Of a stretch of 64,000 nucleotides of DNA, positions 3,959-51,104 are shown piece after piece (the first letter of the stretch is position 1; the number at the start of each line of letters is the position of its first letter). Source of the stretch: Punctularia strigosozonata HHB-11173 SS5 (Eukaryota > Basidiomycota > Agaricomycetes > Corticiales > Punctulariaceae); assembly GCF_000264995.1 (NCBI RefSeq), contig NW_006767445.1, positions 442,084-506,083 of the forward strand, in the 5' to 3' direction. The translations under genes and the position numbers were made by a program. The notes beneath the pieces are model-generated. The model ran no database searches, had not been told where the DNA came from, and saw only the letters and a list, made by a program, of their open reading frames with translations.

Positions 3959-6900
3959 CTACTTTGTTGACTCGCACAACAGCTTGTGCCCCGCCTTCCA
4001 GTCCTTCCTCTGGCACTCAGGTGAGCAGTAGCGCACCTTCTTACACCTGCTACAAATGAGTAGCCTCGGCTTTCCAGGCCCTTGACATGCTATGCAAGCG
4101 TCATCCCTAGTACCCCGAGCGTCCTGCAACGCTCCTGCGCGCATGACGCTGACGGGTTCCACGTACGGCATCGCGTACAGAGGAGAGATTGCGACCCGTG
4201 TGGCGTGTCGCAGTAGAGCTCGCAGGTTGTCCTGGCTCTGGAGGCCCTTGGGAAGGTGACGATCTCGTCCGCAGTTGCAAATGGTCGGCCCGCCCGGTTC
4301 GTCGCTCAACGGAATTCGACCGCTGGCAATGTACTCGCAATTCGGTCCGTGCTCCCACGTCCTGCACCGTTCCACGAGCGCAGGAAGCATCTTCCTCCAC
4401 ATCACCTCTTCCGCACGCGACGTGTGGATCCTTGTCGTAACGCTTCCGGGATGGCGGGTGAAAACACCATAAGCCCGCAACACGCCCGCCGCGTTTTCGC
4501 GATTCACAGGGAGGATAGCGCCGTCTATTACGACAGTGAACGCGGCCGAGTCAATCCGGATCCGATCGACGAAAACGAACATGTAGAGATTTCCGACCTC
4601 GGAATCGGCAATTGCGAAGACGCGGCGCTTCGGCCCTTTCATGCCGCAGTACTCAGCGAAGAACGAATTGATGGTCGTCTTCACCTCTCCAAGCACCTCG
4701 GACGCTACGGCCTCTGTCTTTGGCGAAGACTCAGAGGCGCGCTCGCGGTTGGATAGCTGTACGGCAAGGAGCTGCTCGAGCCATGGCATCAACATCTTCC
4801 GATTGGACACGTCCAGGGTGGTCAAACGATCCAAGGCGATTTGATGAACGCTCCATGAGGTCCTTCCGGCGACGGGAAACGGGTTCAAAGCATATCCACC
4901 TCCACCTAATGCGCCACAAGGAGGAACCACGACCTATACCGTGCGTGGTCAGCGTCGGTCTGGGATGAGCAGTTCGAACTAACCTCTACGTAGCGGGACT
5001 TTCTTGCTACACGCAATCTCATCTTGGACCCATCCACGGGATACGGAAACTTGATGGAAAAATCGGACACCCCGACGGAAATCATCATCGTGCAGGGCGA
5101 TTGCTGTTTTGCGGCCACGATAGCACCATTCCCCAGCGCTTGACCCACGCCTACGTCCGAGATAGGTATATGTCCCGTCAGCTTTTTGACCTCGTTCTGT
5201 TCCATTCCGACGATGATGCTGTACGAAGACGCCCTCCGAGTGTGATCGCGAGCGCTGACTGCAACCTTCTCCAGTTCGTTCGTGCAATTGGGCCGGTTCC
5301 GGAGGACCCTCACGTGCGTACTGTCGTTCACAGGGGCGCTAAACAGTTCAAGTTCTATACCGAGGGACTTCACGAACTTGACGCTGATGATAGGGTTGGG
5401 CTTTAGGCAGAGCGCTACGGTGAGGCCCGCAGCCACGACTATCCACGTCGGCGCCCAAAACGTGAATACGACATGGGAAGCATCCTTCAGTCCTCTCGGA
5501 TCTTCAGCGATGACCGCGCAATGCTGTCCACCCGGAGAGTCGACGATCCTTCCTGGGACTGCGTTAATAGCCAAGAAGGCGTTCACGTACATCCCGGACC
5601 AAAGCTGCACCATGATTGTCGGCGAGGAGTCGCCAAGCTCGATCAATGGCAGCAACGCTGACCTCGGGACTGTGAGGGCGATACATACGACTGGCCCGAC
5701 ATCTTTCCAATCCTTAAACAAGCTCATGGGCGGGTGCGACATGGCCAATTCGCGCCATCGTGAGGTCAAAGGGTCGACCGTGTAGAGGCCGAAGAGATGT
5801 AGTTGAAGGCAGAGTTCCTGGTAAGAGGAAGAACGAATCCACCAGTGGGGATCGCGTTCAACTAAATTCAATAGCGACCCGAAGACGTCCCCCCAGGTGC
5901 CGTCCTGGATGATGAGTCGTCGACGTAGCAATGCTAACAACGTGACAAAGGAGTGGCGCCCGTAGTGATCTCTATGCAGACGCTCGAGCGCCAAGCGGGA
6001 GCGGGCGGCCATGATACTGGTCAGGCATTCATTATCGAACATATTCGTGTAGACCTCGAAAAGAAGTTGGGCGAGGGGGATCACACTAAAACACGGAGTG
6101 GGAATCTCGGCGTTGGACATGTCCCCGTGCGCAGGGTTAACCCAAACCAGGCGTTCGTGGAACTGGCTTGTGCGATTTTGTGTCTCCGTCCGAAGCATCT
6201 CTCCAAACTCATGGACAAGCAACTCGTGTGCACAGGACTGGGTCGAGAACCCCGTCAGGCAGGGGCGGGGAGAAAGGCCCACCAAGAGAGCCATAGCTGT
6301 GATATCGACTCCTAAAGCGTTGCGAAGCCCGACGCTTGGTTCGTCAGAATGCTGGAGGAGAGTCTCTGTGTATAGTACTGCCTTGCTACCACTGTCTTCC
6401 TTCATGAGCGGTTGCGTGACTGTAAGGACGTTGACGAGGCCCAAATGGTCATTTAAGTTAGACGAGTCGATAACGTCGAATTTGCAGGGGAAAGCGGGAG
6501 AGGACGGTGTCGAAGAGCGATCGGCAAGCAAGATCTCCGGGGCGCCCCATTGGTCGACGGGCAGAGCGGGAAGATGATCACCGTGTCGTGAGCAGTGATC
6601 GAGTGCACGACAGAAGAACAAGGCGTCTCCGGTGTAAAATCGAAGATTAAGGGAGGAGATGTTCGTGTCGAGCCTCGTCTTGAAGGCATCACCCCATGAC
6701 TTGAATTGCGCCAACATGAAGGCCCGCACATCGCCCTTCTTCCACGAGGTGTACTGTGACTCAGACACTGGCGCGAATGCGTCGAAGATGTGGAAACCTT
6801 GAGCAGGAAACGTGCCGTAATGGACATTCATGACCTCTCCCGAGCGACAGTAAACGAACAGAGGGTTTATGTTCGTCGCCGCGTTGACGTCCACAGCAGC

Positions 6901-8861: not shown

Positions 8862-11800
8862 CTACCTGCAGAATTGCTTGTGTCCCGCCTTCCAATCCTT
8901 CCTCTGGCACTCAGACGAGCAATAGCGCACCTTCTTGCACCTGCCACAGCTCAGCAAAGTCGGCTTCCATGGACCACCGCAAGCTTTGCAGGAATTCAGG
9001 TCGTTTTGAATGCTCGCAGACAGACCCTGTTCAGGCGCTGCACGGCCGGTGACGGGCTCCACGTATGGCATCGCGAAGAGCAAGGGGATGGCGACCCTCG
9101 TCGCATACGGTAGGAGAGCCTTCAGGTCGTCCTGGCCGCGCAAGCCTTCGGGCAGGTGGTGCCCGCGCCCGCAGCTGCAGAGTGTGTGGCCGACCAGTTC
9201 GTCGCTGAGCGGGATACATCCTGCGGCGATATACTCGCAATCTGCGCCGTGGTCCCATGTCCTACATCTCTCTACGAGCGCAGGGAGCATCTTCTTCCAC
9301 AACAGCGCTTCCGCATTGGACATCCCGATCGACAACATGCTTCCTGCGGGATGGCTGTCGGGGCGTCTAAGCCGGGCATTCGCTCGCGCAACCACGTTTG
9401 CGTTGTCGGGATCTAAGGGGAGGACGGCACCGTCAATCACCACGGTGAACGATGCGGAGTCCAGCCAGATCCGATCGACGAAGATCAGCATGTATATGCC
9501 CAGCCCCTCGTTCTGAGCAAACCCGAACACGCTGACCCTAGGGCCGCGCATGCCAGCGAACCCTGCGAAGAGTGAGTTGAGGGTTTCCTTAACGTCCCCG
9601 AGGATACCCGGGGAAGCGGCGTCCGCCTTGGGCCGTTCGACCAGGGCGCGCTCGTGATCTGATAGCTGCAGGGTCAGAAGTGGATCCATCCACTTCGCTA
9701 TCATCGCCATTTTAGTGACGTCCAGCATGCTCAGTCGTTCCAGAGCCACGTGATGGACGCTCCATGGGTCCCCCTCGACGATTGGGAACGGGCTCAACGC
9801 ATATCCGCCTTTGTCAACTGGACCAGAAGGACGGACCACAACCTAGAGTCGATATTCAGCTAGCAGCCGTGTCTAGTTCAGGCACAACTTGCCTCGACGT
9901 AGTGCGATTTACGAGCCACGCGGAGCCTCTGACGCGATCCATCGACCGGATACGGATACCTCAGGGAATACCGTGCATCTCCGATGGATATCGCCATTGT
10001 ACAGGGTGCCTTTTGTGTGGCGGTCACTATAGCGCCCTCGGCGAGAGCTTGACACGCGGCTGCGTCCGATAAAGGTATTTTCCCCGTCAGGTGATTCACT
10101 TCAAAGTTTCGTCCTAGGTCAACCGTGACGCTGTACGGAGACGCGCTCCGGCGGGGGCCTCGGACGTCGGTTGCTATCTTCTCCAACTCGTTGGTGCAGT
10201 TCGGCCTGTTTCGTAGCACCCGTACGTGCGCCTTGTCGGTGACCGAGGCGCTGAATATTTCGAGGTTCAATCCGAGGGTCGCCCGGAACTTCATAGATGC
10301 GGGGATCGTCGGTTTCAGGGCCAACGCGACGGTGACGCCTGCGGACGCGACGATCCATGTCGGCGCCAAGAACGTGAAGACGACGTTGAGTGCTTCTTTC
10401 ACGCTTTTCACATCTTCAGCCACGAAAACTGGGTCCTGGCCATCCGGCGAGTCGACCAACTGTCCAGGCGCTGCGTTGACGTACATGAAAGTGTTCATGC
10501 CTCCTCCGGCCTGGAGTCACGTCACGACACTTGGTGATGACTCATTGACCGATATCAGGGAGCGTAAATACGATCTCGGGGCGGTGAGCGCAACGCATAC
10601 GACCGGACCGACATGGTCCCATCCTTCGAACAGATGCGTAGGCGGAGGGGACAGAACAAAGTTTCGCCAGTCCGAGGTGAGAGGCGGGAAGGTGTAGAGG
10701 CCAAAGAGGTGGAGATAGAGGTATAACTCCTGGTAGAAGGTGGACCGTACCATGGCGCTGGGATCTCGTTTGACAATGTCCAGAAACGATTCCATAGTGT
10801 CCTTCCAGGCGCCACCCTCAATATTGAGTCGCTGCTTTATGAGGTTCAGGAACATGACAAAGGAATGGCGGTTGTACTGGTCCTGGCTTAGACGTTCGAG
10901 CGCCCAAGGGGAAGAACGGGCGGCCCTGAGACTATCCAAGCTTTCGTTGTCGAACATGTTCGTGTAGATTCCAAACAAGAACTTCCCCAGGGAATCAGCC
11001 TCATAAGTAGGGGGAGGAGATTCGGCCGTGGACGCGTCCCCCTGCGCTGGGTTGACCCACGCCAGTCGTTCGTGCCATTGGCGTGTACGTCCTTCCTCGG
11101 AGACTATTGAATGAGCTCGCAACTCGTGCACACATGACTGAGTCGAGAATCCTGTCAGCCACGGACGTGGAGCAAGTCCTATGAGGAGGGCCATGGCGTC
11201 AACACTGGCGCATAGAGAGTTGCGGAGGTCAGCGCCCGGTTCGTCGGTGTTCTGGATGAGGGTTTCCGTGTACAGAATCGCTTTGCGACCCCCATCTTCG
11301 TTCATGAGAGGTCGAGTGACTGTGATGATGTTGAGAAGGCCCAAATGGTCGGTCAAATTGGAGCAATCGATGACGTCGAACCTGGAGGGGAATGCGCGAG
11401 GGTATATGGACGAAGAGCATCCATCAAGTACAAGTTCCCCAGAACTCCAGAGACCAACGGGTAAGGCGGGGGTGCTATCGCCGGTCCGGGCGCGATATTC
11501 GAGTGCACGACAAAACAGTAGGGCATCTCCTGTGTAAAATCGAAGGAACAACTTCGAAGATGTTTTGTCCTGGACCCTCGCCCTGAACGAATCACTCCAG
11601 CATCGAAACTGTGCTAGTATTGAGGCCCGCACGTCGCCCTTCTCCCAGGAGATGTTCGGAGATGGTGAGACTGGCGCGAAGGCATCGAATAGGTGAAACC
11701 CCTGGGGAGGGAACGTGCCGTAGTGGGGATTAATGGTCTCTCCCTGGCGGGAATACGCGAAAAGGGGGTTCACGTTCTTCGCTCCATCGAGGGCTTCATT

Positions 11801-22752: not shown

Positions 22753-25265
22753 ATGGTGATAGGCATCCTCCCCGGCTCCGGCCACGGCCCCGGCTCGGGA
22801 TCCGCCCTCAACCCCGCGATCCTCACCCTCGCCGGGATCGCGACGTTGGTTGCGACCGTCGTCTCCGCCATCTCCATCTTCCTCCACATCAAGAACTACC
22901 GGAAGCCCATCTTGCAACGGTGTGCGGCCTAGCGTCTCACATTTTACCCGGTGGACTGACAGAAAGGGCGGCATTTACAGGATGGTGATCCGGATCATGC
23001 TCATGGTCCCGCTGTACGCCATCTCGTCGTTCATCTCGCTGTTCTCCCTCGACGCCGCGTTCTTCATCGACGCCATTCGCGATATCTACGAGGTACGTCA
23101 ACCTTGCTCCTGTCCGTATCAGCGGACACTGTTGATGGTGGTTTATCAGGCATTCGTCATATATTGCTTCTTCCAACTGCTGCTTGCGTATCTTGGCGGA
23201 GAACGTTCGCTGCTCATTTTGTTGCACGGCCGTCCACCGAAGGAAGCCGTCTTCCCCGCCACTCTCTTCATGCGCGAGATCGACGTCAGCGATCCATACA
23301 CCTTCCTATTCCTCAAACGTGGCATCATCCGTATGTTCGGAATCACATGCTACCCCTCCGGAGAATTAACTTTCATCATCGCAGAATACGTCCAGGTGAA
23401 GCCGGTCCTTGCGATCGCCACGCTCATCCTCAAAGCTACCGGGAAATACAACGAGGGCGACCTCCGCGTCGACTCCGGCTACCTCTACATCAGCATCGTC
23501 TACAACACGAGCATCTGCCTTAGCCTCTACTGCCTCGCCGTCTTCTGGATGGTCGTCAGCCAGGACCTCAAACCCTTCCGGTAATGCCACTTCACCCCTA
23601 TTCACCCTTATCTAACCCGCGCTTTCCATTTCTCTCAGACCGATGCCCAAATTCCTCTGCGTCAAGGGCATCCTCTTCTTTTCCTTCTGGCAATCGATCG
23701 GCATCTCCGTCCTCGTCAAAGCCGGCTTCATCAAGCGGCTCGGTCCCTACACCGACGCGGAGCACATCTCCCTCGGACTGACCGACACCCTCATCTGCCT
23801 CGAGATGCCGCTCTTCGCGATCGCGCACAACTTTGCCTTCTCCTACCACGACTTCGTCGACCTCTCCTTATCCTACGTCGCGCGCATGCCGATGTACTAC
23901 GCGTTTCGGGACGCGTTCGGCGCGAAGGACGTGCTGGAGGACTCGAAGGCGACGTTGCGCGGGGAAGGGATGGACTACCGCGCGTTCGAGCCGAGCGAGG
24001 GGTATATCCATCAGGGCGTCGGCCGGACCAAAAGGATCAGGGCGGGGTTGAGGTATAGCCAGGGCGGGAAGAAGAAGTACTGGCTGCCGAGGACGACGGC
24101 CGAGCGCGAGCAGCAACATATAGGTGGGGCGGTGAAGGACGCCGTCGTGGGGCGCGCGCAGGATGAGGAGGTGTACGCGCCGCTGTTGGAGGAGGAGGCG
24201 GCGGACGTGGTGCACGACGCGCCGGATATGCAGAGCCCGGGACGGCGCGAGCAGACGGATAGCTTGTGGGTCGATACCGGGCTCCGCCCCAGCTCGCGTG
24301 ACGACGAGGAAGATGGAGATGGGTTCGAGCTTCCGTTTGGCGACCCGGATCCGGCGGAGGACGAGCTGTTCGAGCACGCGAGGCGGTACCTGTTCGGGGA
24401 TTATAATTACCCGTGCATTGACGTGTCGTCGGAGAACGCGAAGGCGCGAATATGGGACGAGGAGGAGAGGATATTGAGGGACGAGCGGGGGGCGTATTTT
24501 TCGCCGATGAGGGGGCCTGGAGGAACGTATGGGGCGGTCGGCGTGTCGGCGAAGAGGCCCAGGGTGGATTCGGCGACGTCGTCGGCTGCGGCGGGGTCGC
24601 CTGTGAATAAGGGCAAGGGGCGGAGCGCGGGGACGCCGAGGGCGGGGACGCCGAAAATCGGGTCGCCGGTCGGTGAGGGTTATGTCGTGGACTATGAGTG
24701 GGACCGCGCGGATGCCGGGGACGCGGGGAGCGGCGTGAAGCTGCACTGGACGAAGGCGCGCAAGGCCGTCGATCGGCAACCGGCGCGGACGCGGTCGCCG
24801 CGCCCCGTCGTGTCGCGCACGGTGTCCGCTATCTCCGCTTCGGCTTCAGGGTCGGGGTCGGGTGGAAGCGCGGCGCCGTCACCGAAGGACCGCCCTGTGC
24901 TGCCGCCAGACGCAGTTGACCTCGTGGTAGAAGATTCGCAGGCGCAGGACGAGGAGATGACGAACGAGCGGAGGAGGGGCGAGCCGGCGCTGCGTGGGTT
25001 ACGGAAGGTGTACAGGCGTGGGTACATTGTACAAGGAGAGGACGGGCGTGAGCAGCAGGTCGAGGTCGAGGAGGAACGGGACGATGACGACGACGACGAC
25101 GATGGGGATGGGGGAGGCGGCGGAGGGGAAGAGGGTATGCGGGAAGGGGAGCGATTGCAGGAGACCCCAATCGAGCCTGTGGCGGAGAGAGTGCCGACGC
25201 CGGCGGTGGTGCATCGGGGCTTGGAAAGGTTGCCGAGCGATACGTTCGATAATCCGTGGGCGTAA
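22753..25265 (+). CDS. Organic solute transporter Ost-alpha / TMEM184 family protein
   Basis: Four exons (22753-22919, 22963-23092, 23150-23580, 23639-25265) give 784 residues. The first about 330 residues are a seven-helix membrane domain: LTLAGIATLVATVVSAISIF, RIMLMVPLYAISSFISLFSL, AFVIYCFFQLLLAYLGGERS, VVSQDLKPFRPMPKFLCVKG, ILFFSFWQSIGISVLV and others. The block VPLYAISSFISLFSLDAAFF and the FLCVKGILFFSFWQ segment are hallmarks of the family (DUF300/Ost-alpha, including TMEM184 and plant LAZ1). The C-terminal 400 residues are a cytosolic low-complexity tail rich in Glu, Arg and Gly with an acidic run near the end. Fungal members sit in internal or vacuolar membranes; transport activity is not established for them. 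Confidence 0.88.
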
Positions 25266-26937
25266 ACGCCGTCGCAGAAGGACCTTTTGGTCCTTCGATC
25301 TTCTTGTTTCATCGCACCTTTTGGCACTACGTTTCGGACATCATGGTCATACCCATATCAGGTCGTTCATCGCATGTTGCATGTAATACTCCACATTGTG
25401 CTTGGCACCATGTATACATAGATAGTACTGCAAGACGCAAATATATATATATATATATATTTGTCGTTGCTCACGCGCAGTTGTTCCAGACTATTGAGAG
25501 GCGATAGGGTGGTATGAATCAATTGTTACAACTTGTAGAAATAGGTGACCTCGAAAAACCATATCGTAGTTTCTCGACCGTATGTCCGTCCCCTGTCCCC
25601 ACCTACCTGCGAACCAAACCTATTTGCCCATTTGTCCCCTGTCCCCTTCCGATTTTCTGCCCGACCACTGATCGTGAGGGGTTCCTAGTCTGACCGTTTG
25701 AATGTTCAAATTGGTTTGAGGATCACTTGGTGAACTTCCACAGGCCCGAACTTGTGAGTGGTGTCCCTTGTCCCCAGGGGATCTGGCCGAACTTACGGTC
25801 AAAAAACTACAGTACCTCTCACTAGCGATTAGAATATGGGTCGAGCTGTCGTGAGAACTACTTGACAGGAATACATGTTGCGTGCTAAATCAGATAGAAG
25901 CGAAGACATCATATACAGCTTGCAGTACAGTGTATGACTGGGGGGGTCCGGACGACGACCGCAATATTGCTGCGATCTCGTAGCAGAGACAATCAGACGC
26001 TCATTTTCTGCTCGGGATCGCTTGCGGACTGACGGTTGTACAGTGCGCGGTGTATAAGCAGTAAGCATCGGACATGGTGACACGGACAGACTTCCAGCAA
26101 CCCTTACAGCCACCTCGCACACGACAGTGTTCTGGAAGATCTCGTAGTCCATAAGAACGGAGTTGAATTTTGACCAACCCGATTATCTAATCAACGCGCC
26201 TCCTGCCAAATGAAGAAATGAGGCGTCGGTCGAGAAGTATATGTAAGAACGTATGTTATAATGTATAAATCAGAGCTTGATCGTGCGCTGTCGGGCAGTG
26301 CTCCACACATACGCAAGCCCTATTCAAAGTAGAATTTGATTCCTATATTGAGAATTTGCGACTAGAGAGGCGATATCAATACCTCGGGCTCGTCCGCAAT
26401 GATTTCAGACCATGTGTCGTCCTATGGCGGACTCGGATGCTCGTCCGTCCAGGACACGGGATACAGCGGAGAGTACTAACGGATCGTTGGATGACCGGCT
26501 TTTCGTTCCAGAAGCAGTACGTCCATTCCACACGCATCTCTGAGATTAAACATGTTCAACGTGGACGCTGGCGAGAACAGGACGCACATTTTCTAGGTTG
26601 TACGCGAGCACGAACCCGACGGTCCCGACCCGACGCCGGATTTCCTGATATGGGGACGTCGCAGCCCGCTTGATCCAGACTCATCCCGCAGGCACGGAAT
26701 TTGTCAGCACCAGGAAACCAGCCTACGAACCTCCGTAGCACCCTCTGAATATCCGAGTAACAGATCAATATCGGAGTTGCGATGGTTGCGCGCATTAGGA
26801 TATTGAACTCGCCCGCGGCGCCATAGATATGGTACCGGGGGATGTCGTTCATTGTTAGTTCGGCGGGTTGAACGTCGCGGTGGCTCATCGCGCGCTAGGG
26901 GAAGACGCGGAGTGGGAGTTTGACCGAAAACAACATA
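25266..26937. other. Intergenic left of the nested transposons
   Basis: No gene recognised with confidence. It holds an AT dinucleotide run at 25440-25460 and a C/T-rich patch with repeated GTCCCCTGTCCCC motifs near 25590-25650. A 110-codon minus-strand open frame at 26556-26888 shows no familiar domain. The last bases before the transposon end in the TA target at 26936-26937. Confidence 0.5.
25440..25460. repeat. (AT)n microsatellite
   Basis: About ten AT units in the 3' flank of the Ost-alpha-like gene. Confidence 0.9.
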
Positions 26938-27012
26938 CAGCCGTTTTCAAAATTCTTGAGCGCGGTGCGAAAAACGGGTCGCGCGTCGTGAGCTGACCCT
27001 ACGTTCGGGTCA
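26938..27012 (+). repeat. Left terminal inverted repeat of the older transposon
   Basis: It begins CAGCCG after TA. The spaced blocks GAGCGCGGTGCG, CGCGCGTCGTG and CCCTACGTTCGGG align with GAGCTGCGCCAC, GCGCGTTGCGTCGTG and CCCTACGCTGGGG of the younger element's repeat. Confidence 0.7.
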
Positions 27013-27063
27013 CCGCCAAATCGTCGCCGTCGCCGGTCTCAACTGCCTTGACAAGCACGAAAT

Positions 27064-28858
27064 ATGCCTAAATCCCGCCGTAAAGTGGTGGAGGTCGAGA
27101 TGTCAGACAAGAAGGACGAAAGTAGCAGCGAGGACGAGCCGGAAATTGTGCCCCCTGGTACGCGATCATAGTCTCTACGTTGCATATTCATGCTCAAACC
27201 CGTTTTGGCTGCAGTTGCCTCGTTGCGCATTCGAATCCCTCCGAATGTAGCAGTACGCAATTCTCAAGGTATATTCTGTTAGTTTCTGGTGTATTTGTTG
27301 CTGACTGATGCGGGCTAGTTGTACGAGAGGAGGAGGAGAGTTCCGAGGACACGGCATCTCCCATCGAGAAGCATGATGTCCCACCCACTCTCCCAAGCTC
27401 CTGTCCAAAGCTCGCATCTCCACACGGAGAAATCTTCGATTTTCCAAGTTCTCCGCAGTACAGCCCAACGGATTTGCTCCCTGGTCCTGAGCCAGATCCG
27501 GTGCCATTACCCGCCGTCTCGACCAAATCCACGACCAAATCTTCGGCAAAACTGAAGGGCAAGGGCACGGGTAACCCGCGTTCAAAGCCTGACAACGGTG
27601 CCGATGCCGAAATATCGGTCTATTTTCAGGTTAACAAACCTGCGTCCGCACGTCCGCTCCAGAAGAAGGGCCACAAAGCCGAAAAACAAGATTATTACTC
27701 TTTCGGCCCGCTAGTCATGTCTGGAAAGTGGACATGGAACATGTTCCTGAGTGGTGCTGCAGAATGTGTGAAGTCGAATCTGTTGACGAACTTCAGGTGC
27801 ACTCATTTTCGTGGAGATTCCTCGAGCCGTCCACTGCACCCGTGCTTCCGCTTGTCAGCGAGAATGGTTTTGATGCTTTGATCACACAAGCACTCGGTCG
27901 ACAGCCCGCGAAGCGGTTCCTCACTGTGCGGATGGATATGCCACGCAAGCAGATCGACAGCCTTGTACGTTAGTCATTTCCTCAAACACGAGCTGGTGCT
28001 GATATAACGCTCAGCCATGGAACAATTCGAAGTCCAAGCATAATAAAGACAATGCTGACAATGAGTCCTCAAGTGGCAAGGAGCCTGAAGACACGCTACT
28101 GGCGCAGGTGAGCCTATATCGTATATTGAACTTGTACTAATAATCTGACAGGGGAAACGTGATGATATTATCAACGAATACGAGAAACAGCTTGCAGTAA
28201 AGTATGCACCTGGACTATGCGCAGAGCACCCCAACATTTCATGCTATCATTACCGCCCAGCAAATCTTCACTTTGAGCTCAATCGTATCTCTCGCCTAGT
28301 ATGGGCAAGTCAAATCGTGAGTGAGCCACTTACCCACATTTGATTGCTGACTTCTGCGAGCAGAAACAGAACAAAGCAACATTTGATCATCCTGTTGTGC
28401 CTTCCGCACATTTCTGCGAAGAGAAAGCACTCAAGACTAAGACTCCAGTGAAGATTCCGATTGTAACAGCTCCGACTATGCCCCAGCCGCTATCCGCACC
28501 AGAGCAAATGGTACCGCCATACATGCCGCACATGTTACCATACTTTATGCCTCCGTACATGCTCCCGCTGCCAATTATGAATCCGGTTACTCCATCGCCA
28601 TCGCCAAGCCGCAAGCGTAGCCACGAGGTTCTCCTGGGCTCGTCGCCAGTGAAAGCTACGATAAGCCTCAAAGAATTCTGTGATAAATATGGTCTACCCG
28701 AATCAACGAAGGAGCGTCTAGAAGAGATGGAGTTCATGCCTGGGGATAGTCTCAGTGGAGTCCCGGAATCGGAGTGGAAAGCGGTTGGTTTCAAGTTATT
28801 TTCTTGGAACCGGGTGGTACGGGCAAACACCGAATACAAGAAGACAGTTAAAAAATAG
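27064..28858 (+). pseudogene. Transposon accessory gene, older copy (one frameshift)
   Basis: Several exons: MPKSRRKVVEVEMSDKKDES (27064 on), two introns with T-starting acceptors, a long Ser/Pro/Lys-rich exon, then shorter exons. Aligned with the younger element's protein it shares a central block (SWRFLEPSTAPVLPLVSENG), a putative metal-binding block GLCAEHPNISCYHY with C-x2-H-P-x3-C spacing, LHFELNRISRLVWASQI, a Met/Pro-rich linker (MPHMLPYFMPPYMLPLPIM) and a C-terminal helical domain (LKEFCDKYGLPESTKERLEE, then PESEWKAVGFKLFSWNRVVR) that looks SAM-like. The frame slips by one base near 27768 between AAECVK and ESVDELQ. No known family was recognised. The role is unknown; conservation beside the transposase suggests a part in transposition. 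Confidence 0.75.
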
Positions 28859-28859
28859 T

Positions 28860-29982
28860 CTACTGCATAATGTATCCACTATGCTTGAACCATTGTTCTG
28901 CCTTCTCTGCCATGACCGTTGCGCATGCATCCATCAACACTGTGTAAGGGTCCTCAGCATGGCAAAGTTGCCGGTATGAACACCGTAGCCATGCTTTCAC
29001 TATCGCAGCAGCAGTGAGATCAAACAGTAAGGTCAAGATCAAAAACTTACATGCACTAAAGCTCTCCTCAATTGGATTTAGATCAGGAGAGTAAGGGGGA
29101 ATGAATATGAGAGAACAACCTAAAGTTAATAATCAGTGCAAAGTAAACAACAAGTTACGAGTTCATTCACACCTTGGGCTTCAGCCAACTCCCTCAAAAC
29201 CTCACTCTTATGTATGGAACAATTGTCAAGCAGCAAAACACTGCAATCACGGGGGAACGGGTTCATCTGCGGCAGCTGGGAAAGATTCAGTAGTGAACAC
29301 TGACAAAACACTGCCGGCGTACCACTTCTTCTACGATGAAATCGAAGAATTCGTCACTGTTGACCGACCCCAAAACAGGTCGGGCAGCAATGTAGCCCCG
29401 GGTAGATAGAGCAGCTACCAAGCTGTAGCGCTGGCCTCGTGCAAATGGGCTCTTGACCTTAACGGAGACTCCACGAGGTGCACGACCGTATACTCGACAA
29501 AGTGTCCTTCCATCCTTGCTGGTTTCATCCACTGCTACGATTTGCTGGGCGACAAGATGCCGCTGCACGTCTTCCTTCCATGCCTCTCGCTGTGCTTCGT
29601 CCTGCTCTATCGCAGCCTTCCTAAGCTTTTTGTATGTCAAACCCGCGTCGGCAATAATCCGGTGGACAGTGCTGAGGGACATGTTAACATCGCGAGCAAT
29701 GGCCAACCATTCTTGTACCTCGTCAAGGTACAGGTCCGGCGCCTCGGAGAGAAGCTGATGCATGTCCCGGCGAGTCTCGGATGTGATCAGCGTAGGGCGG
29801 CCCCTCTTTCCAGGTTGGTGTGGGGGATGGAATGCACCGTGGAGGCGTTGGTTGCGGCGCCATCGTCAGAGACTGGCAAGAGAGAAGCCAAGGATGCGAC
29901 AGATGCTTTCGGGGGCATAGTCATGGTATATAAGCCATAAAGCCCGCTCCTTGATGTCTGAACTGATCTTTTGAAAGGGCAT
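28860..29982 (-). pseudogene. DDE transposase (Tc1/IS630-type), older copy (in-frame stop)
   Basis: It starts MPFQKISSDIKERALWLIYH and has an N-terminal helix-turn-helix region, in which a TGA at 29866-29868 stands where the younger copy has Thr (SLASLTRW). The DDE core is complete: IVAVDETSKDGRTLCRVYGR (first Asp), VLLLDNCSIHKSEVLRELAE (second Asp) and IPPYSPDLNPIEESF (Glu), giving a D34E spacing typical of Tc1-like elements. Introns interrupt the core after FDFIVEEV and after the AEAQG segment, at the same places as in the younger copy. The end reads AEQWFKHSGYIMQ. The stop could be a CpG transition from CGA. As read, the protein would end within the DNA-binding region. Confidence 0.85.
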
Positions 29983-29989
29983 TGGTCGT

Positions 29990-29991
29990 TA
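29990..29991. other. TA target-site duplication, left copy
   Basis: TA immediately before the left inverted repeat of the younger transposon, matched by TA at 33186-33187 after the right repeat. Confidence 0.85.
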
Positions 29992-30066
29992 CAGCTGATT
30001 CGGAAAATCATGTGCTGCACCACTTTTTTGCGCGTTGCATCGTATACGAACCCTACGCTGGGGTTG
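29992..30066 (+). repeat. Left terminal inverted repeat of the younger transposon
   Basis: It pairs with the reverse complement of 33111-33185 over about 75 bp with four mismatches; the outer 21 bp are identical. Confidence 0.9.
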
Positions 30067-30108
30067 ACATCCGTTTCACCGTGTATGCGCTCGATAGCTC
30101 GCTGAATC

Positions 30109-31928
30109 ATGCCTCCGAAACGGTCAAAAGTCTCCAAATCTCGCAGCAGACGGCCCCCCAAGGCTAGGGCAAGTGATCAAGAACCATGCGAGCCGGAGGA
30201 AAATGCGAGGTCAGGTATGGAGAGGCTATTGCTGTTCTCGGTCTCCACTGCTATCTATGGGTTTCATACTCTCCTTTCAAGGCTCTCAGAAGCTGTTCAT
30301 CAAGCTTCCGGCACCCACACTTGCTAAATCCGACCCGAGTACGAGATTCTCCTTGCTCAGAATGACATTGTTGACTGATCATCCATAAAGTCGAGCTGTC
30401 CAGTGATAGAGACTCGAGCTCAAGTGACGAGGACCATCAGCACCACGAGGATGTTCTTGTGCAACGTGAAGAGGAGGAGGAGGAGGAAGAAGAAGAGAAG
30501 GAGGAGGAAGAGGGGGATCCGTTCTCCGAGTCTCCATTCAATTGGGACCTAGAAGAGACTGGCGGCGCCACGCCATGGCCGAACTCAGAGCTCGAGGTTC
30601 CAACCACGCCTATCGCAGCCCGTCGTACGTCTACAACTTTAGGACGTGGTAAACAGCCCCCGGTCCTGCGTGGTGATGATGTAGAAGAGCAGGCATTCAA
30701 TGTCTACTACGAGATTGTGGTGCCGGCCTCGTCTGGGACACGTGTCAGGGGAAGGTCGCAAAATCCCAAGGAGAAAGAAACCATCCATCACGATGGCCCC
30801 GCGGAAATTCCCATGGACTTCTCGTGGGAGGCATTTCTTGCACGAACTGCAGACACGATCGAGGGAGTTGGTTCCGTCGATCAACTCCCAATCTCATCGT
30901 TTATGTGGAGATTTGTCAGACTGAAGAATGCTCCCTTCCTCCCACTCAGCAAACCCGAGGGCTATCGAGCAATGCTTGCGCAGTTTGACGGCAAGAAGCC
31001 TTCGCAATGTAATATCTTCGTTCGCATGGCAAAGCCAAAGAGAGACAAACCTGATACTCCTGTATGTGAACACATTGATTGCTGTCTATAGTTCTAACGC
31101 CTGGATTCCAGACTTGGGCCGCCAAGGCGGACGATAGCAGTTCACCAAGTGACGAAGGTGATGCAGACTTAGACTGGAAGAGCATACTTAGCAGGGGAAG
31201 AAAGGATGAACCTATCGAGCATTACGCGCAGAGGATCCTCGAGATATGGCATATTGGAAAGTGCAAAGAACATCCCAAGATCCCATGCTTCTTTGGTCAT
31301 GAATCACAGCTTCACTTTGACTTGAAGGAGCCGGCACGCCTTGCGTGGGCAGCACAGATTGTATGTGATGCATTCAATCAAGCGGGGTTGTGATCTGACT
31401 CAGATTGTACAGGTACAAGGTGAGGCCTCGATTGTATGTCCGAAGATTCCGTCTGCTACATTCAATGTCCGGACTGCCTTGAAGAAGTCTGCTGTATCTG
31501 CTGCACCGGAACCATCTACCTCCATGCAGCCATCTACGCCGACGCCAGGTCAACCATACATGTTTCCTTCATTTGCTCCATCTTTCCCGTTCATGCCGAT
31601 GCCATTCCCATATTCACCTGGCTTTGCGCCCCATTCTAGTTACCCAAGCGGCAGCAGATTTGTGACTCCACAGCTCCGTAACAAGCGATCGTTCGATGAT
31701 CGGGAATCTTCACCGGTTATGGATCCAGTGTCGCTAGAAGAATTTTGCACAGAGTATCGTCTATCATCAACTATCCGTGATCGGCTTGAGCGGATGGAAT
31801 TTCAGCCTGGAATGAGTTTGGCGCAGATTACGGAGGATGATTGGAAGGAGAAAGGATTTGAGAAGCTTGGGTGGGGAAGTGTTGTTCGGGCAAACATGAA
31901 GTACAAGGAGAAAGCGAATAGCACATAG
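30109..31928 (+). CDS. Transposon accessory protein, younger copy
   Basis: The first exon encodes a basic start (MPPKRSKVSKSRSRRPPKAR), which suggests nuclear import. One or two short exons follow (about 30275-30370, joins uncertain), then a long exon with a Ser/Asp patch and a Glu run, the core block FMWRFVRLKNAPFLPLSKPE, an exon with GKCKEHPKIPCFFGH (C-x2-H-P-x3-C, possibly metal-binding) and LHFDLKEPARLAWAAQI, and a last exon with a Pro/Met/Phe-rich linker and a C-terminal helical domain (LEEFCTEYRLSSTIRDRLER, then WKEKGFEKLGWGSVVRANMK). All blocks align with the older copy. The frame is open to 31928. No known domain was identified with certainty; the C-terminus resembles a SAM-like fold by pattern only. 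A DNA-binding or assembly role in transposition is inference. Confidence 0.75.
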
Positions 31929-31932
31929 ATCA

Positions 31933-33060
31933 TTATCCGATACGGTAACCACTATGTCTAAACCAGCCTATTGCCTTGTCGGCAGTGACAGCATGAGCAC
32001 ATGCTTCGTGTATATCTAAAATTGGGTCATTGCTGTTGAGAAGATGTCGATAGCTTCTGCGAAGCCATGCCTTCACTGGCATAAAGTTAGCGACTGAGTT
32101 GGAGCGACAAAGTGTATTGCACACGCACATGCACTGAAACTCTCTTCAATAGGGTTGAGATCCGGTGAGTATGGTGGGAGAAAGACTAAAAGGCATCCTG
32201 CCATAACATCAGGACCACCGTGTGATGAGAGATTGCAACATGAGACACAGACCTTGTCCCTCAACAACACGGCGTAGCGTGTCCATTTTGTGGATCGAGC
32301 AGTTGTCGAGGATGAGGACACTCTGGTCTTGTGGATATGGGTTCATGCGCGGAAGCTATGCACTCGTCAGACTACTTCAAATGCATCTCCTGATGTGACG
32401 TACCACTTCCTCGACAATGAAGTCAAAGAATTCGTATGCGTTGACGGAGCCCTCCACAACACGTGTCGACACGTATCCCGAGAGGGACAGGGCTGCTACA
32501 ACACTATATCTTACTCCTCTGGCCAAAGGATTTGTCATCGGAGCTCGATCCCCTTCCTGCGAACGACCGTAAACCCGACACAAAGTCCGCCCATCCTTGC
32601 TTGATTCGTCAACCGTGACGATCATCCGCGCACGCAAGTGTTGCTGCACAGTCTGACGCCACGTAGCCCGTTGTTCTTCATCCCTCTCAATGGCAGACTT
32701 CTGCAGCTTCTTGTAGGTATAGCCAGAGTCGTTGATGAGGTCATGGATCGCGGTCTTCGAGAGAGCCAATTCGTGGGCAATAGCAAGCCACTGCTGGACT
32801 TCGTCAAGATAGAGGTCTGGAGCCTCTATAAGTAGATTCAGGATGTCGGACCGCTGCTCGCCCGTCGTCCGAGAGGGTCGGCCACGAATGGACCGGGGAG
32901 GTCGAGCAAGGGAGTCGTATTCCTCGAAATTGTGTTTCCATCGTGTCAAGCTAGCAAGAGACACGCCAATAATGCTACATATTGCTTCGCGTTCGAGTCC
33001 CCTGTCAATCAGATGCAAAGCACGTAGTTTGACGTCGTCACTAATCGTTCGGAAGCCCAT
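31933..33060 (-). CDS. DDE transposase (Tc1/IS630-type), younger copy
   Basis: It starts MGFRTISDDVKLRALHLIDR at 33060. The helix-turn-helix region REAICSIIGVSLASLTRWKH is followed by a second winged-type region (DLYLDEVQQWLAIAHELALS). The catalytic residues are all seen: IVTVDESSKDGRTLCRVYGR, VLILDNCSIHKMDTLRRVVE and LPPYSPDLNPIEESFSAC. Introns lie after the FDFIVEEV segment (GTACGT donor) and after the VVEGQG segment, as in the older copy. The tail is WFRHSGYRIG. It would cut and paste elements at TA sites. The upstream ATG at 33135 lies inside the terminal repeat and is less likely to be the start. Confidence 0.85.
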
Positions 33061-33110
33061 GGGGAGCGTATCAACGTGTATCGCTGGCGTGTCTGCGCTC
33101 TTGACACAGA

Positions 33111-33185
33111 CAACCCCAGCGTAGGGTTCGTACACGACGCAACGCGCAAAAAAGTGGCGCAGCTCATGATTTTCCGAATCAGCTG
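33111..33185 (-). repeat. Right terminal inverted repeat of the younger transposon
   Basis: Reverse complement of the left repeat, ending CCGAATCAGCTG before the TA at 33186-33187. Confidence 0.9.
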
Positions 33186-33479
33186 TAAATATCAGCTCGT
33201 AAGTACTCGTCGATGTCGAAGAAGAAAGAGAGGCGGCGATTGTAGCTTCGGTGTACCGGCTGTATCCACGGAACTTCTAGCCATATTTGCTACATTGCTA
33301 TATATCCACGGTCATCCTATATCGCTAACCCCCTCGAAACCCCTCCTCGGGCTGAACTGCGTCGTAGAAAACCTTCATGTGATTCTACTCAGCGGCTGTG
33401 AAATCCGCCTTCAGACTCGGAGTCTGTGAGCGCCAAGCTTGCGCGCCCCTTCATCGCTTCGTCTACTCTCTGTCTCTCC

Positions 33480-34605
33480 ATGTCATCATCGCACAAGCCG
33501 CACATCGAGGACGAGGAAGACGTCGACGACCTCGACGGTCAGTGACACCGTCGCAGCCTTGTCCCCTCCATCTGAAGCGCGCACATCGCTCAGACGTCGT
33601 CGAACAGTTCGCCACCCCGGCGCCTTCTACTACCGCTGCTAAACCCGCATCGGCAGCGAAGGCGCCCGCGCTCGAGGCGGGAAAGGATAAGGCGGAAGAT
33701 GACGACGGGCTCGATTCCGACTTTGCGCGCGCGTTCGCGAAGGAGATGGAGTCGTTTATGAAGGATCTCGGTGGGCAGCATCCTGGGGCCACCGGCGTCG
33801 CGGGTACGGGGCAGGAGGGAGGCGGGGAGTCGAGCGATGTAGAAAAGGAGCGGCTCATGGCTGCCTGGGAAGCGATGCTGGTCGAGGGCATGAACGGCAT
33901 GAGCGAGGGCGCGCCCACCGGTACCGTCCCCGCGGAAGACAACGACTTCCAGAAGACGATCCGGGAGACGATGGACAAGATGAAGCAGAGCGAGGAGGCG
34001 CTGAAGGAGGCCGACAACGCGCCGCCGCCGGACTCGCTCGAGGCGCTCCTGGCGCAGCTCAAGCTCGACGGCGAGAACGGCGAGACGGAGGAGGACTTCC
34101 AGAGCATATTGGAGAGCATGATGACACAGCTGATGAGCAAGGATGTGCTGTACGAGCCGCTCAAGGAGCTGCACGATAAGGTTCGTCTCTCTTCCTCTGC
34201 GCGTCCTGTTCTCTGCTTGTCGCTGTCCTTTCTGCTGATCGTGTGCCGCTCGCGCAGTTCCCAGATTACCTCGCGGAGAACTCGGCCAAATTATCGACAG
34301 CGGATAAGGACCGGTACGAGCGGCAATACTCGTGCGTCCAACAGATCGTCGAGGTGTTCGAAGACCCGTCCTACTCGGACGAAGACGCGCAAAAGGGGAC
34401 TCGGATCGTCACCCTCATGAACGAGGTAAACGGGCAACCTCTCCTTTTCTTCCCGTCTTACCCGTCGGCTAACGGGGGTTTTTTTTCGCGAAAGATGCAA
34501 TCTCATGGCTCGCCGCCGCCGGAGATCATGGGCCCCCTCCCGCCCGGTCTCGACGTCGGCCCCGACGGCTTGCCAAAGCTGCCAGATGGGTGCACGATAG
34601 CGTGA
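33480..34605 (+). CDS. PEX19: Peroxisomal membrane protein import receptor PEX19
   Basis: Four exons (33480-33537, 33594-34180, 34258-34425, 34495-34605) give 307 residues, normal for PEX19. The start MSSSHKPHIEDEEDVDDLDD is the acidic PEX3-binding end. The middle has DSDFARAFAKEMESFMKDLG, the all-helical cargo-binding domain contains EDFQSILESMMTQLMSKDVL and YEPLKELHDK, and the domain closes with PPPEIMGPLPPGLDVGPDGL. The last four residues are CTIA, a CaaX box, as in PEX19 proteins that are farnesylated. PEX19 binds newly made peroxisomal membrane proteins in the cytosol and delivers them to PEX3. It begins about 290 bp right of the younger transposon. Confidence 0.95.
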
Positions 34606-49847: not shown

Positions 49848-51104
49848 ATGGCCTCACGAGCCCCGCAAGTAACGCTCGAGCAAGCGCAAAAGATCGTCGA
49901 CCACCACCGAGGCGAGCACACACCTATCACCTCGTTCGAAGAGGTCACAGAGCTCGGCGACATCACGTACGTATTACATCCTCCGCCAACCTCTCCGGAC
50001 TCCCTAGCACACCCCAATCGCGGCATTCCCCCGCTCAACACGCGATATAAACACAGGTGCCCCACGACGTCGATATACACCATCCACACCTCCTCCCCCT
50101 CCCCCTCCCCCTCCTCAGAACCCACCGCAGGAACGGCGCACTCGTACGTGCTCAAAGCCTCCCCGCCCCGTCCCTCGCCCGCGCCCGACATCCTCGCCGG
50201 CAACCCGCTGTCCGCCGAGCTCGCCCTCCTCCACCAGCTCGCGACCCGCCTGCCCCCCTCCGTCCCCGTCCCCCGCGCGCTCGCCCACTCCTCGTCCTGC
50301 TCTCAGCTCGTGCCGTTCGAGTTCCTGCTCCTCTCCCATCCTTCCCCTCCCTCTCCCCCAACTTCCCAAACCACGAAGACCAAGACCGGGAAGACCGAGC
50401 TGCGCACGCTCGCCTCCCTCCGCCGCGCCGGCGCGCTCTCCGCGCGCCACGCCGTCCTGCTCGACCTCCGCCTCGGGACGTACCTCAAAGCGCTGCACGC
50501 GCTCGACCACGATTTCTTCGGCTTGCCGGACACGCCCGCGGCCGAGCAGGCGTACAGCTGGCAGGAGGCGGTCACGCTCATGCTCGAGGAGGCGCTCGCC
50601 GCGTTGGAGGAGGAGGAGGAGGAGGAGGAGGAGGAGGAAAAGGACGGGAGGATCGACGTCGGGAGCGTCAGGAAGAGCCTCGGGCGCGCGATCGGGTTCT
50701 ATCTGTTCGACGACTGCGAGTGGCCGGCGTTCGTCGGGTTCGGGGCGGGGGCCGAGTCGGTGCTCGTCGCGCTTGGGGAGGAAGGGGAGGAAGGGGGGGA
50801 GGGGGAGGAGGAGGAGCCGGAGATCAGGGGTGTCTTGAGCTACGGGCTGGGGAACGCGGTGTGGGGCGATCCGCTGGCGGAGGCGTGGTTCGTCGACCCG
50901 AGCGAGGCGCTGTTGGAGGGGTATGGAGGGAGCCCGGTGGTGTTCCCGAGGCAGAGGACGAAGAGGGTGTGGTATACGCTGCTCGGGGCGTTGGTCGCGC
51001 TCGTGCAGGCTAAGCGGGGGAAAGGCCAGGGAGAGAGGGCGGAGAGGGCGCGGAGGACGGCGAGGGAGTGCGTGGAGGTGTTGAAAGACGCGCCGTGTTA
51101 TTAG
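49848..51104 (+). CDS. Aminoglycoside-phosphotransferase-like (protein-kinase-like fold) protein
   Basis: It starts MASRAPQVTLEQAQKIVDHH. A 90-nt in-frame intron (49967-50056, GTACGT...ACAG) probably splits the first strand block, leaving 388 residues. VLKASPP matches the small-lobe Lys strand, and ELALLHQLATRLPPSVPVPR matches the following helix of fungal APH-like proteins. LLDLRLGTYLKALHALDHDF matches the large-lobe helix and GNAVWGDPLAEAWFVDPSEA the conserved block after the metal-binding Asp. I do not see the catalytic HGDL..N loop or a clear DxD, so it may be inactive. Two acidic runs (a nine-Glu run near residue 255 and GEEGGEGEEEE) expand the large lobe. The substrate is unknown. Confidence 0.6.
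   Translation: MASRAPQVTLEQAQKIVDHHRGEHTPITSFEEVTELGDITYVLHPPPTSPDSLAHPNRGIPPLNTRYKHRCPTTSIYTIHTSSPSPSPSSEPTAGTAHSYVLKASPPRPSPAPDILAGNPLSAELALLHQLATRLPPSVPVPRALAHSSSCSQLVPFEFLLLSHPSPPSPPTSQTTKTKTGKTELRTLASLRRAGALSARHAVLLDLRLGTYLKALHALDHDFFGLPDTPAAEQAYSWQEAVTLMLEEALAALEEEEEEEEEEEKDGRIDVGSVRKSLGRAIGFYLFDDCEWPAFVGFGAGAESVLVALGEEGEEGGEGEEEEPEIRGVLSYGLGNAVWGDPLAEAWFVDPSEALLEGYGGSPVVFPRQRTKRVWYTLLGALVALVQAKRGKGQGERAERARRTARECVEVLKDAPCY

Follow-up and report, generated by a model that had tools for sequence, protein, structure and literature searches.

A conserved second gene in two diverged IS630/Tc1-like transposons of the fungus Punctularia strigosozonata

The IS630/Tc1/mariner transposons are the textbook case of one-protein transposition, and gene-delivery tools in wide use derive from them. 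An earlier note on the DNA described below stated that Tc1/mariner elements normally carry only a transposase. This is right as a rule (PMC12242761), but the ciliate elements TBE and Tec are known exceptions (PMC12242761, PMC7325037). Both have three open reading frames (ORFs), and the terminal repeats of TBE measure approximately 80 bp (PMC7325037). The two extra TBE proteins of Oxytricha, described as surprising for Tc1/mariner, are under purifying selection and have been proposed to be accessory factors (PMC12242761). Accessory genes in this superfamily are unusual, yet already known from ciliates. Here we describe a locus of the basidiomycete Punctularia strigosozonata HHB-11173 SS5, found in a window of 64,000 nucleotides (the whole stretch analysed: assembly GCF_000264995.1, contig NW_006767445.1, positions 442,084 to 506,083 of the forward strand; G+C approximately 57%). 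Region 26938-33262 of this window consists of two related but diverged transposon elements, an outer and an inner one. Each carries a transposase gene (tnp1 in the outer, tnp2 in the inner element) and a second, accessory gene (acc1 and acc2, respectively; Table 1).

The gene models of both elements follow the plan proposed in the earlier note, in which a plus-strand gene converges on a minus-strand D34E transposase. The stop codons are indeed 1 base apart in the outer element (acc1 28856-28858, tnp1 28860-28862) and 4 bases apart in the inner one (acc2 31926-31928, tnp2 31933-31935). With stops so close, the transcripts of the convergent genes very likely overlap at their 3' ends; double-stranded RNA could form from these overlaps (28856-28862 and 31926-31935). 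Introns in the genes of both elements are 44-67 nucleotides long, which, like the neighbouring Pex19 gene described below, agrees with a fungal origin. The inner element (29992-33185, 3,194 bp) is complete, with TA flanks, inverted repeats and both genes intact. Its 75-bp repeats are identical at 71 positions, with 4 mismatches (0 of 300 shuffles scored as high), and it has the TA target duplication and terminal inverted repeats that are a feature of the IS630-Tc1-mariner (ITm) superfamily.

The conserved convergent accessory gene, the central claim of the earlier note, stands: it is present in both copies with four intron sites in common, and acc2 matches the second part of acc1 with a blastp E-value of 5e-57 (181 bits, compared with 23.1 bits for the best of 50 residue shuffles). 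The match to the first part of acc1 covers 71 aligned residues (E-value 9e-5), and the phases of the four shared introns agree once the acc1 frameshift is allowed for. The divergence between the copies is large, with 59% identity for the transposases and 35% for the second proteins. Where a fourfold-degenerate residue is conserved, the third base differs in 15 of 22 cases in the second gene and in 34 of 43 in the transposase, which is near saturation. We compared the codon positions of acc1 and acc2 in three ungapped blocks picked by hand from the alignment (187 of 464 aligned codons), and found 81, 67 and 118 differences at positions 1, 2 and 3 (position 3 versus 2, sign test, p = 1.5e-7; C-terminal block, p = 7e-5; middle block, p = 0.0033). 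Because both proteins are still recognisable at near-saturated fourfold sites, we conclude from this comparison of sequences that selection has maintained the second gene in the two elements. This constraint and the four shared introns are as predicted for a working part of the element, and we regard a selected two-gene transposon as highly probable. The two genes have thus travelled together, with constraint on the protein, through a very long period of divergence. Most simply, a single ancestor that already had two genes gave rise to both elements, which makes this one origin and not two.

A dN/dS ratio (nonsynonymous to synonymous) for the accessory gene had been suggested as a check in the earlier note. 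This could be followed in part: over the whole length the synonymous sites are saturated (proportions of synonymous and nonsynonymous differences, pS and pN, of 0.76 and 0.48 for the second gene and 0.78 and 0.29 for the transposase), while the three blocks above, taken together, do show constraint. We dropped the whole-length ratio because of this saturation and because codon-shuffled controls (n = 3, aligned in the same way) tilt similarly. A 44-nucleotide intron of acc1 (28108-28151) is without counterpart in acc2, which indicates an intron gain or loss within the lineage.

The transposase encoded by tnp2 has the triad D151, D236 and E271, with the 34 residues between the last two that the earlier note had given (DD34E), a catalytic triad of the spacing characteristic of the ITm superfamily. 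It matches the Pfam domain DDE_3 (E-value 9.4e-27), and several helix-turn-helix models also match. The best curated NCBIfam match is the IS630 model NF033545, at 163.6 bits (cut-off 100) over residues 13-284. On a comparable stretch of 91-92 amino acids this model gives 68 bits for tnp2 and 46.5 bits for Sleeping Beauty, a single control, both values falling below 100 as expected of short pieces. Among PDB sequences tnp2 has four matches at E-value 10 or less, of which Sleeping Beauty (E-value 0.54) is the sole transposase and the other three are ribosomal protein L19. The Tc3-type helix-turn-helix PF01498, which we take to be a mark of the classical Tc1 family, reaches an E-value of 0.062 and 14 bits (cut-off 31.5) with a piece of tnp1, and the N-terminal part of tnp2 does not match it. 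Since the IS630 model is matched well above its cut-off, “IS630/Tc1-like” is the safer name. The label “Tc1/mariner” used in the earlier note is loose in view of this best match, though the D34E triad, the TA flanks and the terminal repeats agree with the wider ITm superfamily. The intron sites of the transposase are shared by the two copies, as the earlier note had it, but their number is three, not two: all three lie at equal aligned codons and in equal phase in tnp1 and tnp2. In both genes the third (32128-32076 in tnp2, 29050-29000 in tnp1) splits the coding sequence between ESFSA and KAWLR. With two genes in 3,194 bp, the inner element departs from the classical Tc1 plan of a single ORF in approximately 1.3 kb (the norm as given in PMC7325037).

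The tips of the elements read CAGCTG and CAGCCG. The distance from tip to start codon is 117 and 125 bp at the two inner ends and 126 bp at the outer left one. Since the two inner repeats are near-identical and each leads into one gene at these distances, the genes probably use duplicate promoters and are made together. The inner and outer repeats each contain a palindrome with equal spacing and equal distance from the tip, differing by one paired change; the two inner copies are not independent of each other.

What might the second protein do? We modelled two of its parts, between which a C-H-C-H motif is located. For the middle domain, predicted from a three-row alignment, the best of five models has a predicted local distance difference test (pLDDT) score of 80.9 (range 43-81). 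Its best Foldseek match is the PB1 domain of Cdc24 (E-value 0.053, probability 0.96), and the PB1 domain of PKC-iota also matches (E-value 0.094). Of the ten best matches, four are titled PB1, and a fifth is the phox domain of MEKK3. The C-terminal model (last 72 residues, two rows; best pLDDT 81.5, five models 57-81.5) consists of four helices and a three-residue one, compared with the five helices of a SAM fold. All 14 of its Foldseek matches are weak (E-value 3.6 or worse). Among them, at E-values of 3.6-9.4, are the LEAFY oligomerisation domain, the SHD2 domain of Sla1 and the SAM domain of p63, the last ranking 12th. The first two of these are presumably SAM-type folds as well. Sequence databases add little: Pfam gives sub-threshold matches only (Nop14, E-value 0.59, in the acidic part; nSTAND_NTPase4, E-value 0.18, in acc1), and neither NCBIfam nor PDB sequences give a match at an E-value of 1. 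The acidic and proline/methionine-rich parts of the protein are probably disordered. On the strength of these models, a self-associating scaffold is a plausible role for it. A GAG/GAA repeat (30471-30517) codes for a long glutamate run in acc2, much shorter in acc1, and accounts for the one similarity seen between 26000-34000 and other parts of the window (50606-50654).

Table 1. Positions in the window of the outer and inner elements and their parts
Feature	Position	Strand	Remarks
TA flank, outer left	26936-26937	.	TACAGCCG once per strand in window
Outer left terminal repeat	26938-27018	+	extent approximate; similar to inner repeats
Palindrome TGACCC-N7-GGGTCA, outer left repeat	26994-27012	.	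57-75 bp from tip
acc1	27064-28858	+	exons 27064-27157, 27215-27268, 27319-27964, 28015-28107, 28152-28316, 28364-28858; frameshift
tnp1	28860-29982	-	exons 29982-29323, 29275-29173, 29119-29051, 28999-28860; in-frame TGA
TA flank, inner left	29990-29991	.	begins 8 bp upstream of tnp1 start codon
Inner left terminal inverted repeat	29992-30066	+	71/75 identical to right repeat
Palindrome AACCC-N7-GGGTT, inner left repeat	30049-30065	.	sequence
acc2	30109-31928	+	532 amino acids, intact, no stop; exons 30109-30214, 30282-30338, 30391-31061, 31112-31360, 31413-31928
acc2 middle domain, amino acids 155-278	30690-31061	+	PB1-like in model; pLDDT 80.9; Foldseek
acc2 motif C-x2-H-x4-C-x8-H (C329, H332, C337, H346)	31262-31315	+	kept in acc1
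acc2 C-terminal helical domain, amino acids 461-532	31710-31925	+	SAM-like in model; pLDDT 81.5
tnp2	31933-33060	-	323 amino acids, intact, no stop; D151, D236, E271; exons 33060-32404, 32355-32253, 32197-32129, 32075-31933
Inner right terminal inverted repeat	33111-33185	-	71/75 identical to left repeat
Palindrome AACCC-N7-GGGTT, inner right repeat	33112-33128	.	sequence
TA flank, inner right	33186-33187	.	sequence
Putative right remnant of outer element	33188-33262	.	match to left end = tip CGGCTG + TA only

Our preferred reading, to which we would give an even chance, is that the two elements belong to a lineage of two-gene IS630/Tc1-like DNA transposons, in which the second protein is a self-associating scaffold partner of the transposase. 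That the second protein helps transposition directly we consider slightly better than an even call; the assembly-scaffold version of this helper role is put forward more tentatively. In such an element the transposase would bind the repeat ends and cut and paste at TA, and both genes would fire from the duplicate repeat promoters, with matched expression. The second protein would then self-associate through its PB1-like middle, a possible zinc knuckle and its SAM-like end. Its most likely binding partner would be the transposase or else the palindrome inside the repeat, and it would serve to keep the two transposon ends paired or to anchor the complex on chromatin. PB1 and SAM are folds that can build filaments. 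The boldest form of the reading, an undescribed eukaryotic IS630/Tc1-like subgroup, independent of TBE and Tec, that needs a self-polymerising PB1-like and SAM-like protein to scaffold its paired ends, seems doubtful to us.

A number of points speak against the scaffold reading. PB1 domains typically carry an acidic OPCA motif or a basic lysine, and neither is evident by eye in acc1 or acc2. No fold match of the acc2 domains reaches an E-value of 0.001 in Foldseek, and the SAM-like reading draws on the E-values of 3.6-9.4 given above. The C-terminal profile has six matches among PDB sequences at E-values of 0.47-1.1 (five UPF0335, one M protein), none of them SAM, and in Pfam neither PB1 nor SAM is matched even at an E-value of 10. 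A helper is not obviously needed, because the transposase has a helix-turn-helix of its own. The evidence consists of sequence and models, and the sample is two independent elements only. In the codon-position test, the block containing the C-H motif is not significant when taken alone (p = 0.087). Nor is the palindrome of the repeats alone, since others with arms of comparable length are present at these ends. In the ciliates, the accessory proteins left DNA-binding profiles unchanged in E. coli (PMC12242761).

Other roles for the second protein have to be weighed against that of a scaffold. It might be an anti-silencing or chromatin factor that maintains expression of the element or makes chromatin at the target accessible, with no role in strand transfer. 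SAM folds often self-associate on chromatin, which would fit such a role, and RNA silencing could be fuelled by the overlap of the convergent genes at their 3' ends, which would supply a reason for a counter-measure. Many other fungal DNA transposon lineages also carry TET/JBP dioxygenase genes that are thought to counter silencing by methylation (PMC12730594). However, a search of Pfam and NCBIfam found no dioxygenase or other enzyme domain in the second protein, and no direct link to chromatin is seen; we rate this role as rather unlikely. Less probable again is a regulator that binds the repeat palindrome and sets or represses the expression of both genes. The position of the palindrome, 57-75 bp from the tips and between tip and start codons, with its one paired change between the elements, would suit a regulator, but it could equally bind the transposase or a host factor, and the second protein has no known DNA-binding domain that we could find, its putative C-H-C-H motif being short. 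Finally, the second gene might be a passenger, gained once by the ancestor and still read, but useless to the element. There are only two elements to judge from, and the second protein has diverged faster than the transposase (35% versus 59% identity), as a passenger might. Yet the gene is kept in both lineages at the same place, and neither its intact frame in the inner copy nor the codon-position asymmetry near fourfold saturation is expected without constraint, so we find this explanation very improbable.

The relation between the two elements can be examined separately. The outer element is broken: tnp1 has an in-frame TGA at codon 39, and acc1 has a frameshift near 27767-27775, its spliced length of 1,547 being no multiple of 3. 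We consider it likely that the inner element was inserted in an older outer element. The claim of nesting made in the earlier note finds support at the left end. There the outer element is similar to the inner right repeat (score 34, equalled in 1 of 2,000 shuffles), the aligned stretches being short and reaching from the tip to position 73 in each; similarity to the inner left repeat is less clear (score 24, equalled in 30 of 2,000). At the right end, 33188-33262 shows no resemblance to the outer left end (315 of 2,000 shuffles equal) beyond the shared TACAGCCG. This 8-mer, the tip CAGCCG plus TA, occurs once per strand in the 64-kb window, at the two proposed ends of the outer element. By arithmetic, the outer element without its insert and one TA copy would measure 3,129 bp, near the 3,194 bp of the inner element.

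Could the inner element simply have landed beside a right-truncated relative, so that the outer copy is no true container and the match at 33257-33264 is due to chance? We regard this as a real, if lesser, possibility. The proposed right remnant is unlike the outer left repeat and without its palindrome, and no right repeat is found in the next 2.8 kb either (score 23, shuffle mean 25.7). But TACAGCCG is placed precisely at both proposed outer ends, and the implied length agrees with that of the inner element. One further comparison counts against the support for nesting: a stretch to the left of the outer end, 24638-24677, scores 37 with the outer left end, more than the 34 of the inner right repeat. 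Outside the elements 38 stretch comparisons were made; this match, from a 2.9-kb stretch, scored highest (the others 19-33) and is equalled in 1 of 1,000 shuffles. It is G+C-rich, falls within a reading frame and partly coincides with a short tandem repeat; we took it as a chance match of a G+C-rich coding stretch. On balance we think that nesting is real and that the repeat at the right end of the outer element has been lost or replaced.

We looked for relatives in prokaryote, viral, plasmid and phage collections, which are not fungal and so say little about fungi. No close relative of either protein was found in the prokaryote, viral and plasmid searches. Full-length tnp2 gave no pattern match in viral contigs, and a two-row transposase profile gave 174 stretches, none confirmed, and no PDB sequence match at an E-value of 0.001. 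A 60-amino-acid catalytic piece of the transposase hit 63 stretches at 41 loci. Five of these loci, when translated, look like intron-less IS630-type frames, and acc2 has no match at an E-value of 0.001 in any of the 41. A fungal-specific piece of 85 amino acids gave 94 stretches in genome contigs and 5 in viral contigs, none confirmed; a degenerate pattern written for the invariant KDGRTLCRVYG block has 0 exact occurrences in both collections and 2 in the window. Phage records contain 5 matches to tnp2 (26-40% identity, E-values 1e-9 to 1e-15). Plasmids gave no match with the element's DNA or with acc2, and a profile of the second protein gave 600 stretches in viral contigs, none confirmed. 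In the literature, none of the matches listed describes, by title and abstract opening, a Tc1/mariner element from a fungus in which this second gene is present; subscription journals and Repbase were outside the scope of that search.

Two observations concern the surroundings. A Pex19 gene (33480-34420; Pfam PF04614, E-value 2.2e-55) starts at 33480, 216 bp past the TA of the outer right end, which places both insertions in its upstream region, where they could affect its expression. Farther away, two minus-strand frames (3959-4930 and 8862-9839), possibly paralogues, have a terminal MYND zinc finger (Pfam E-values 1e-11 and 2.6e-11).

That a second protein has been kept across a very deep divergence suggests that some members of the superfamily depend on a partner. 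Why a self-sufficient transposase would need one becomes testable in yeast, and the second protein offers an unexplored family to look for in fungal genomes. If the scaffold reading is true, these elements are a two-component version of a superfamily that is taken as a one-protein model.

How does this locus compare with known systems? IS630 elements also target TA, and the present transposase scores above the curated cut-off of their model (163.6 versus 100 bits). To our knowledge, however, they carry no such second gene, whereas the present element has three introns in its transposase, approximately 3.2 kb and a second convergent gene. TBE shares with it a DD34E transposase, repeats of approximately 80 bp and extra genes under purifying selection (PMC12242761, PMC7325037), but differs in its telomere-like tips and in having a pair of additional ORFs, of which one encodes zinc-finger and kinase domains. 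The present elements have a single additional gene, without a kinase match in Pfam or NCBIfam, and the tips, CAGCTG and CAGCCG, are not telomere-like repeats of the TBE kind. Tec, too, is a multi-gene DD34E element with one ORF in the complement (PMC7325037); its repeats are approximately 700 bp long and one ORF is a site-specific recombinase, compared with 75 bp and no recombinase match found here. We detected no domain common to the present second gene and the TBE and Tec proteins.

Among fungi, the TET/JBP-bearing DNA transposons resemble the present elements in carrying a further gene that is believed to help the transposon (PMC12730594); the word “mariner” is absent from the main text of that paper, and our second protein has no dioxygenase domain that we could find. 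MarorTcMar-18 of Marasmius oreades, a mushroom Tc/mariner family of 3,972 bp, has room for a second gene (PMC9674265). It may be a relative of the present elements, but is a lead only. PIF/Harbinger transposons combine a transposase and a required partner, encoded by two independent genes, in one DNA transposon (PMC2836001). Their target site is 3 bp long, their partner protein is Myb-like and their transposase has no evident binding domain, whereas here the target is TA, the transposase has a helix-turn-helix and the second protein gave no Myb match in Pfam. PIF/Harbinger, with two proteins that are both required, is nevertheless the best working analogue.

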